Part shown: positions 12,850-41,590 of the stretch, piece by piece
How the letters are laid out: each line of letters starts with the position of its first letter
Numbering within the stretch: position 1 is the first letter of the stretch
Origin: Actinomycetota bacterium
GTDB lineage: Bacteria; Actinomycetota; Geothermincolia; Fen-727; JAQUKT01
Direction: 5' to 3'
Length of the DNA: 41,590 nt
NCBI GenBank assembly: GCA_028718945.1
Contig: JAQUKT010000006.1
Location: 1 to 41,590 of the forward strand
Translations under genes and position numbers: made by a program
Notes under the pieces: generated by a model
The model's input: only the letters and a program-made list of their open reading frames with translations
Told to the model about the DNA's origin: nothing
Database searches by the model: none

Positions 12850-12923
12850 GGGGCCGTGGTCCAATGGGAAGATGCGTCCTTCGCGCGGACGAGACGGGGG
12901 TTCGACTCCCCCCGGCTCCACCA
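12850..12923 (+). tRNA. tRNA-Ala(CGC), CCA encoded
   Basis: GGGGCCG...CGGCTCC acceptor with G3-U70 identity pair; anticodon stem CGTCC/GGACG with loop TTCGCGC (anticodon CGC); GGGGG-TTCGACT-CCCCC T-arm; ends ACCA. Confidence 0.93.
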
Positions 12924-12960
12924 TACGAGTAGCTACAATTTTTCTTCAATCCCTTCAGAG

Positions 12961-18934: not shown

Positions 18935-19103
18935 ATAGACATCCCCTTCATTGTTCATGTTCTTATTCTCCAGCAATGTCAGACGAGCCTCACTTTCAGA
19001 ATTGAACGAAGAAAATAGACCTTTCAGTACATGTTCCACTATGCAGTAGCACCAGTTCCTCTCGACAATGCATAGCGGCAACGCCCGTTTATAGGAAGGC
19101 ACC

Positions 19104-19377
19104 CACGAATACTTATAAGCCCCCTGGGGTTCGAATCCCGCCGGGGTTTTATACTTGCGCTACTCGTATGGTGGAGGCGGCGGGAGTCGAACCCGTCGCT
19201 TCGCTTCCCCTATGGGGACCTCCGGTCCCCCTGAGGGCGCTTCGCTGTCACCCCCCTGATTTGAACGCGGGGGAATCCTTCCCCACACGAATACTTATAA
19301 GCCCCCTGGGGTTCGAATCCCGCCGGGGTTTTATACTTGCGCTACTCGTATGGTGGAGGCGGCGGGAGTCGAACCCG
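19104..19377. repeat. Tandem ~182-bp repeat at the ssrA 3' end; 92-bp identical direct repeat (19104-19195 and 19286-19377)
   Basis: The two 92-bp blocks are identical by eye, offset 182. The inner one includes the true ssrA T-arm/acceptor/CCA end (19351-19377); the outer one is an ectopic copy (19169-19195). Confidence 0.9.
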
Positions 19378-19699
19378 CGTCCAGAGAAGTTTCCACACCG
19401 GCATCTACGGGCATATCTCGTGATTCCCTCTCACTGCATTGCGGCTCACGGGAAGCCTCCTGCAGCCAGCTCCGTCTTAATTTATTTGCTCGCGCGCGCC
19501 TCGGAGCACTGCGCACTCGAGTTAGCCTGCTTCCATCGCTCTCCCGGCGCCGCAGGCATCACCGGGGAGCGGCTGCCATATTAAGCAGCAAGCGCCATTT
19601 CAGAATCGGCGTTTGGTTTTCTACCAGCATTTTAACGAGATACTGGAGCTCGACCCGCACCGGAGTTTCGTTCATCCCTGTCGAAACCAGATCGCCCCC
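19351..19699 (-). ncRNA. ssrA: tmRNA; tag peptide read as AGRKPNADSEMALAA
   Basis: Minus strand: GGGGGCGATCTGGTTTCGACAGGG at the 5' end; tag ORF GCT GGT AGA AAA CCA AAC GCC GAT TCT GAA ATG GCG CTT GCT GCT TAA; 3' end GGACGCGGGTTCGACTCCCGCCGCCTCCACCA; acceptor GGGGGCG/CGCCTCC with G-U third pair. Confidence 0.96.
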
Positions 19700-19729
19700 T
19701 CATATAAAGTATACGACATCAGAGAAATT

Positions 19730-20197
19730 TTATTGACGCCTCCTCGAAAGTGCACGTTCAATCTGTCTCTCCGCCTCACGTTTGGCAATTTCCCTTCTCT
19801 TGTCATATTTACGTCTTCCCCGAGCCAACCCGAGCTCGACTTTTGCTTTTCCGTTTCTTATGTAAACCCTCAAAGGGATAAGCGTATAGCCCTTTTCATT
19901 CAATTTGCCGAAGATTCTCTCAATCTCCTTCTTGTGAAGAAGCAACTTCCTTGGTCTTTTTTCATCATGCCCGAATCTTCCCGCTTTTTCATATTGTGCA
20001 ATATGGCTGTTGAAAAGAAATAATTCCCCTCCTTCAATCGCGGCATAAGCATCCCGCAAGCTTATGCGACCCTCCCTGATTGATTTTATCTCGCTCCCGG
20101 TAAGGGCGATTCCCGCCTCCAAGCGTTCTTCAATCTCATAGTCATGGAAGGCTTTTTTGTTCGTAGCCTTTATCCGAATTTCTCCATCTCTTTCCAT
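19730..20197 (-). CDS. smpB: SsrA-binding protein SmpB
   Basis: 155 aa; NKKAFHDYEIEERLEAGIALTGSEIKSIREGRISLRDAYAAIEGGELFLFNSHIAQYE, GLARGRRKYDKRREIAKREAERQI. Confidence 0.97.
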   Translation of the reverse strand: MERDGEIRIKATNKKAFHDYEIEERLEAGIALTGSEIKSIREGRISLRDAYAAIEGGELFLFNSHIAQYEKAGRFGHDEKRPRKLLLHKKEIERIFGKLNEKGYTLIPLRVYIRNGKAKVELGLARGRRKYDKRREIAKREAERQIERALSRRRQ

Positions 20198-20631: not shown

Positions 20632-21039
20632 CTACTCCTCTTTCTTAATGAGATATGTCAAATATCTTGGCTTCCGAATTGGTATGTTCCGATAAGACTT
20701 CGGCTTGAGCAGGTGTTTGTCTCCCGATATGATGAGGTTTGCTTTGCCTTCTATCGCACATTCCAATACTCTATTGTCTGCCTCGTCAGGAACTACTGAT
20801 ATCCTCTCCTTTGGGTTTTGAAGCTCAGCCAGCCGGCACGTGGCTCTCTCAAACTGTGCGATTCTGTGTTCTGGCCAAAAGAACTTGTCTCTCAGCTTTC
20901 CAGCGGTCTCATTGATGATCTCGTCTGAAGCAATCAACACAACCTGACGTTCCAAAGCGAGTTCAAGGATTTGTCTGGTTGGCCCATCAAAAAGAATCGC
21001 GGATATGTAGACATTCGAGTCGAAGACGACCCTTAGCAC
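20632..21039 (-). CDS. PIN-domain toxin (putative toxin-antitoxin toxin component)
   Basis: 135 aa; LRVVFDSNVYISAILFDGPTRQILELAL, IINETAGKL, DEADNRVLECAIEGKANLIISGDKHLL: PIN acidic residues. Confidence 0.9.
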   Translation of the reverse strand: MLRVVFDSNVYISAILFDGPTRQILELALERQVVLIASDEIINETAGKLRDKFFWPEHRIAQFERATCRLAELQNPKERISVVPDEADNRVLECAIEGKANLIISGDKHLLKPKSYRNIPIRKPRYLTYLIKKEE

Positions 21040-41333: not shown

Positions 41334-41590
41334 GATACTCCCCCGAAAACCCCCTGGTCGCGGTTTCGATCCCGTGGGAAGTCTTTTGTTGAATGGAGCG
41401 GGAAACGGGGCTCGAACCCCCTTCGTCGCTCGAGAGATCACTCTCGCTCCCCATAGGGGGGCTTCCTGCCCCCCTGATGGCGCTTCGCCTTCGGCTCCGC
41501 TGTCATCCCCTATGAGTGAGATTAGTATCGGGGGATACTCCCCCGAAAACCCCCTGGTCGCGGTTTCGATCCCGTGGGAAGTTTTTGTTG
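41334..41590. repeat. Tandem ~200-bp repeat carrying a tRNA-Gly-like 3' fragment, running off the window
   Basis: 41334-41391 and 41534-41590 are near-identical (one-base indel), offset 200. 41394-41420 on the minus strand reads GGGGTTCGAGCCCCGTTTCCCGCTCCA, like a tRNA-Gly T-arm/acceptor/CCA. Confidence 0.85.

Follow-up and report, generated by a model that had tools for sequence, protein, structure and literature searches.

The window analysed here, a 41,590-nt contig (JAQUKT010000006.1) from the draft genome of an Actinomycetota bacterium, carries a 182-bp block directly behind ssrA, the gene for transfer-messenger RNA (tmRNA). This block is probably one unit of a structured, non-coding and non-autonomous repeat family, which colonizes tRNA and tmRNA genes at their 3' ends and leaves the host gene restored. 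The block is delimited by a 92-nt direct repeat (19104–19195 and 19286–19377), the copies of which are 100% identical and lie 182 nt apart from start to start. The inner copy comprises the 3' end of ssrA, recognized by the Rfam tmRNA model (RF00023, 161.8 bits), together with the adjoining 65 nt, and the outer copy consists of the last 27 nt of the gene (19169–19195) and the identical 65 nt. Homology within ssrA ends at about tRNA position 50, in the 5' strand of the T-stem. In all these respects and coordinates, direct comparison of the repeats bears out the preliminary description of the locus, which had left room for a one-off duplication. The repeat is not a matter of chance, since 92 bp match perfectly and the ssrA genes of relatives are followed by an identical arrangement (loci L057, L062 and L055). 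The preliminary description captured the direct copies; it missed the hairpin core, the T-arm copy in inverted orientation and another array of the family at the right end of the window.

The complete unit reads, in order, from the host T-loop to CCA, through a trailer, an inverted T-arm and a structured core, to the next T-loop-to-CCA copy. Direct copies start at nucleotides 45–52 of the host gene and end at nucleotide 76, and the inverted copy covers approximately nucleotides 45–70, with the T-loop at its center. The host gene remains intact, because units join it at the T-loop and its 3' part is restored. Arrays gain or lose whole units, and the last unit is often truncated at the first hairpin. 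Two core types share this anatomy: class A, which is found behind ssrA in the window, and class B (GGGGTCACCGCGCGCCG...CGGCGCGTGGGGT). In one genome of the phylum, G019, four tandem class A cores follow each other at a spacing of ~125–130 bp (C59:9870–10343), forming units shorter than elsewhere.

In the relative G005, assembled in 10 contigs, 13 of the 48 tRNA and tmRNA genes carry a unit, and when each inverted copy was scored against all 48 genes, its own gene proved the best match in 12 of the 13 units. No permutation of units over genes reached the observed sum of matches (p ≤ 5e-5), and the sum for the window's own genome, hereafter G000, is likewise extreme (p about 1e-4). In class B units and in the tyrT units of Escherichia coli, the arms of the inverted copy follow the tRNA while the loop part is specific to the element. 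An inverted T-arm that follows its host is a concrete clue, open to testing, to the way in which these repeats target tRNA genes and preserve them.

Model R1 detected class A in 21 of 398 genomes across the phylum, distributed over 18 genera and mostly in several copies each. Eight of the 14 genomes of the order, G000 included, contain 4–22 copies per genome, as does G019, and the remaining six lack class A. Nearly all class A loci with flanking sequence (n = 30) lie directly behind a tRNA or tmRNA gene or at a contig end, and the units are not dispersed between genes genome-wide. Two orphans were found without a complete tRNA upstream, one with a Glu-type inverted copy and end (L168) and one carrying a tRNA 3'-end fragment (L169); weak matches at three further loci (L174–L176) look like chance. 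When relatives from the same order and class were searched with the locus, matches turned up downstream of ssrA and of genes for tRNA-Lys, Ala, Leu, Ile, Ser, Gln, Arg and Gly. The ssrA gene, earlier named as parent, is thus one host among many. Scanning GTDB genomes with the pattern of the class A motif yielded only two metagenome-assembled genomes of the same order and two matches in unrelated sequence, and phages and plasmids contained no relative of the window unit except the tRNA end itself.

The core of the ssrA unit contains hairpins built from G-runs and C-runs. Compensatory changes are present among 17 aligned class A cores, and when 44 distinct class A matches were realigned to the model, 96.8% of the cells pair and double changes occur in 16 of the 20 pairs. 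Doubly changed cells number 105, compared with 21 after shuffling and 5–17 with the partner slid; the alignment of 44 was fitted to the structure and is hence biased towards it, yet the slid controls are far off. We infer that the core functions at some stage in single-stranded form, as RNA or as DNA. Folding of the whole unit together with the T-loop end of the gene is better than that of shuffled sequences (z -3.25), whereas removal of the gene end leaves the folding of the unit at the level of shuffles. No Met codon, and thus no Tpr-like reading frame, is present in the three sense frames of 19104–19377.

Mixed arrays and shared cores show exchange between loci, by transposition or recombination. 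In the relative G001, cores behind Ser and Ala tRNAs are 94–100% identical, and the second unit of its Ala(cgc) array bears a Ser(gga)-type 3' end and a Ser-type trailer. Behind tRNA-Val(cac) of G005, a class A unit is followed by a class B unit, with Val-matched inverted copies in both, and a similar pair of classes occurs in G011 (L183). In the Ser(tga) array of G000, two variants of the class B core occur together, with a trailer and an inverted copy that are locus-specific and constant. These features would be consistent with a mobile, non-autonomous element that inserts at further tRNA genes and for which the T-arm may serve as target. Entry would probably proceed via a folded single strand, and a RAYT transposase (of the HUH, Y1 type) is the best lead to an enzyme, for class B only.

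Y1/RAYT-type transposases are encoded in 14 of 18 genomes. Two similar RAYT-like genes adjoin the unit-bearing tRNA-Ala(ggc) in G005 and G006, and a third Y1/RAYT-like gene lies behind tRNA-Ser(gct) in G005; these are the three of the 20 Y1_Tnp loci examined that adjoin a tRNA with a unit or unit remnant. In G005, the RAYT gene beside tRNA-Ala(ggc) has class B ends on both sides, and for class A no such flanking is seen; the link is only suggestive, a lead for class B. The sequence GGGGTCACC was considered as a dispersed repetitive extragenic palindrome (REP) and rejected: the G005 sites inspected away from the unit loci seem to have no relation to the unit, and only in G000 are some repeats present. 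In G000 a Y1 transposase gene is located among three GGGGTCAGGTCTTGCAAT repeats (L199, C3:62000–64695), which look like the REPs of that transposase. A reverse transcriptase was discarded as partner, as none is encoded in 11 of 12 unit-bearing genomes, G000 included. An integron integrase (TIGR02249) was discarded as well, with no intact gene in the 12 unit-bearing genomes searched and an intact one only in the unit-free G003. Broken relatives of this integrase are present in G000 (C31) and G099 (C23); the one in G000, a gene with an in-frame stop, stands beside the 3' end of tRNA-Ala(ggc) (L109, C31:260–1060).

Several observations weigh against a mobile family. No mobilizing enzyme is tied to class A, 17 of the 20 Y1 loci examined are without a nearby tRNA, and almost all of the unit-bearing genomes examined lack both a reverse transcriptase and an intact integron integrase. 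Among close relatives, no case of a unit arriving at a previously empty tRNA gene was observed, and the exchange of cores between arrays could be due to homologous recombination. Furthermore, the inverted copy behind ssrA in the window is generic, its own gene taking rank 11 of 45, and the inverted copies of G001 look generic too.

The main rival explanation, which we regard as unlikely, takes the unit for a functional rtT-like small RNA: co-transcription with the host gene, ssrA or a tRNA, would be followed by cleavage at the distal CCA, and the unit would be retained because the RNA, or a decoy tRNA 3' end, is useful to the cell. The preliminary description had likewise put forward, as possibilities, a small RNA released by 3' processing and a buffering of processing enzymes. 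Conservation of the core structure with covariation, the folding of the unit together with the gene end and the anatomy shared with E. coli rtT would all fit such an RNA, and RtT-family RNAs are expressed in Actinobacillus near tRNA-Asn and tRNA-Lys (PMC4986893). Against it, two unrelated cores serve the same role, the unit folds like shuffles once the gene end is removed, and the units are patchy, with six of the 14 genomes of the order free of class A and about 750 E. coli genomes free of any unit (of 5426 complete E. coli genomes, 4677 have tyrT-type units, at 1–9 places each). In G033 and G048, which belong to other families of the phylum, the trailer contains a hairpin of 14–18 bp with a T-rich tail, and the inverted copy and core sit past this terminator-like hairpin, which argues against a purely transcript-level role in those families. 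An intrinsic terminator scan of L171, L172 and L187 was run with a loop limit of 8 nt, at which long-loop hairpins are missed.

Alternatively, the block could have been left behind, as a scar or remnant, by a tyrosine-recombinase genomic island or mini-island located at ssrA and tRNA genes, with the 27-nt copies representing attL and attR. We judge this improbable. Direct 27-nt copies of a gene 3' end are typical of att repeats, and decayed or intact integrases adjoin three other tRNAs of G000. However, the window contig contains no tyrosine recombinase gene, the five matches in G000 all being on other contigs, and no normal-sized island with these exact ends was seen. One and the same core behind many tRNAs with differing att sequences also speaks against a scar, and neither the inverted T-arm nor the covarying core would be expected of one. 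Of the att-like scar raised in the preliminary description, what stands is that the direct copies look like a duplicated or restored target.

Template switching during replication would explain the inverted copies by fold-back at the near-palindromic T-arms and the tandem copies by slippage, with the core as a passenger. The match of inverted copies to the local T-arm and the ending of arrays at the first hairpin agree with such a process, to which we give little credence. A simple fold-back would erase the element-specific loop that is kept in the inverted copies of class B and E. coli, and the same core at many tRNAs is not accounted for. That the block is a one-off duplication or an assembly artefact is highly improbable: G000 is a draft of 121 contigs and contigs do break within these repeats, but the arrangement is also found in independent genomes, and the tyrT unit in closed E. 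coli genomes.

Features of the two class A arrays and of a possible unit remnant in the window
Feature	Position	Strand	Remarks
ssrA (tmRNA), host gene	19351..19699	-	last 27 nt (19351-19377) form the gene-borne T-loop-to-CCA copy
Trailer	19329..19350	-	TACGAGTAGCGCAAGTATAAAA, 22 nt, between CCA and inverted copy
Inverted T-arm copy	about 19308..19328	-	within CCCCGGCGGGATTCGAACCCC; 17-nt best match 19309-19325
Class A structured core	19196..19307	-	ends ...GAAGCGA; model R1 match 19202-19306
Core hairpin 1	~19266-19289	-	
Core hairpin 3	~19214-19231	-	
Distal direct copy of last 27 nt of ssrA	19169..19195	-	
Second, truncated unit	19104..19168	-	trailer, inverted T-arm and first core bases; stops at hairpin 1
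Second class A array	41334..41590	-	tRNA-Gly-type ends; runs off the contig
Core of second array	41445-41554	-	
Distal Gly 3'-end copy of second array	~41394-41420	-	
Truncated next unit of second array	~41334-41393	-	
tRNA-Ala(cgc)	12850..12933	+	first 10 nt of trailer (TACGAGTAGC, at 12924) identical to those of ssrA

The window contig ends inside its right-hand Gly-type array, and contig C26 begins with a matching array behind tRNA-Gly(gcc). The trailer of tRNA-Ala(cgc) might be a unit remnant. Elsewhere in G000, class A units are located behind tRNA-Leu(gag) in addition to ssrA and tRNA-Gly(gcc), remnants behind tRNA-Asp and tRNA-Gly(tcc), and class B arrays or copies behind four tRNA-Ser genes and the Val(cac), Met and Ile genes. 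At the tRNA-Gly(tcc) locus (L010, C4:1–225), the gene retains the unit trailer and the inverted copy, followed by an insertion sequence-like end GGGGTCAGGTCTTGCAAT and the start of an open reading frame, presumably of an IS110-type transposase.

At the gathering threshold, Rfam reported only tmRNA and tRNA-Ala matches in the whole window. ARAGORN additionally called a second tmRNA, of permuted type (18948–19443, minus strand; tag GRCRYALSRGTGATA), a call that depends on the T-arm copy within the repeat and seems to be spurious. On the plus strand, antisense reading frames at 19168–19584 and 19350–19736 cross the T-arm and yield peptides such as VEAAGVEPA and RRRESNPRPE; peptides of this kind are a frequent mis-annotation opposite tRNA genes. 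The units explain recurrent contig breaks as well as false tmRNA and peptide calls in draft genomes. Directly upstream of ssrA lies a reading frame of 155 codons (19730–20197, minus strand) that we take to be SmpB-like, SmpB being the protein partner of tmRNA, and a further one of 135 codons (20632–21039, minus strand) presumably encodes a PIN-domain protein of the VapC type.

Compared with known systems, the units share with integrative elements and satellites at tRNA and ssrA 3' ends the T-arm-to-CCA target and the restored gene end. They differ in being only ~180 bp long and gene-free, in occupying many tRNAs per genome, in their inverted T-arm and in a contig without an integrase. Integron attC arrays and att sites that fold as single strands are similar in that an imperfect inverted repeat, consisting of two paired arms and a variable loop, separates the tandem units, and the unpaired center of class B and E. 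coli units adds to this likeness. In contrast to integrons, the units hold no cassette genes and, in the genomes searched, occur without an intact integrase; the integron core site is GTTRRRY, from which the T-loop GTTCGAA differs.

REPs, bacterial interspersed mosaic elements (BIMEs) and REPINs, which are mobilized by RAYTs, resemble the units as short, hairpin-rich and non-autonomous sequences, and class B ends lie around the RAYT gene of G005. Yet those elements are dispersed, whereas the units stand behind tRNA genes with direct and inverted copies of the host tRNA, and the RAYT link of class A amounts to one neighbor in G006. Sequences similar to rtT have been noted in BIMEs (PMC2965389).

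The closest likeness in anatomy is to RtT (RF00391, rttR). In E. coli K-12, Klebsiella and Salmonella, the tyrT units follow the same order of tRNA-Tyr 3' end, trailer, inverted T-arm (GGGGAAGGATGAGAAGCTTCGA in K-12), core and 3' end again, so that in both systems tandem units of ~180 bp and variable copy number stand behind a tRNA-type gene, each ending in a 3'-end copy with CCA and each having an inverted T-arm between trailer and core. Comparison of an E. coli strain lacking the unit with a strain that has one shows a difference of exactly 178 bp, located between narI and the second tRNA-Tyr. In the narI region, some strains lack the tRNA-Tyr pair and the RtT units and have other genes instead (L195, E. 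coli Ecol_AZ159). A phage search with the E. coli unit gave no match, and two matches from the plasmid collection were set aside when they turned out to be tyrT loci. The Actinomycetota units have another core, many hosts including ssrA and no Tpr-like frame, and units of ten loci did not match the Rfam RtT model at E ≤ 5, where E. coli units score 133–138 bits. The Actinomycetota family therefore falls outside RtT by sequence and shares its working plan; the analogy with tyrT drawn in the preliminary description is well supported for the anatomy and fails for membership. A literature search, made mostly without subscription papers, returned no description of ssrA-linked or inverted-T-arm units. 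We tentatively propose, as a possibility well short of a likelihood, a broad class of elements homing to tRNA 3' ends in Actinomycetota and Enterobacteria, E. coli tyrT/rtT included, in which the inverted T-arm would be a targeting or folding arm that becomes matched to its host and the element would move as a folded single strand, leaving the tRNA intact. The tyrT repeats of E. coli have so far been a local oddity, and the same anatomy around unrelated cores in another phylum would make them members of a class.
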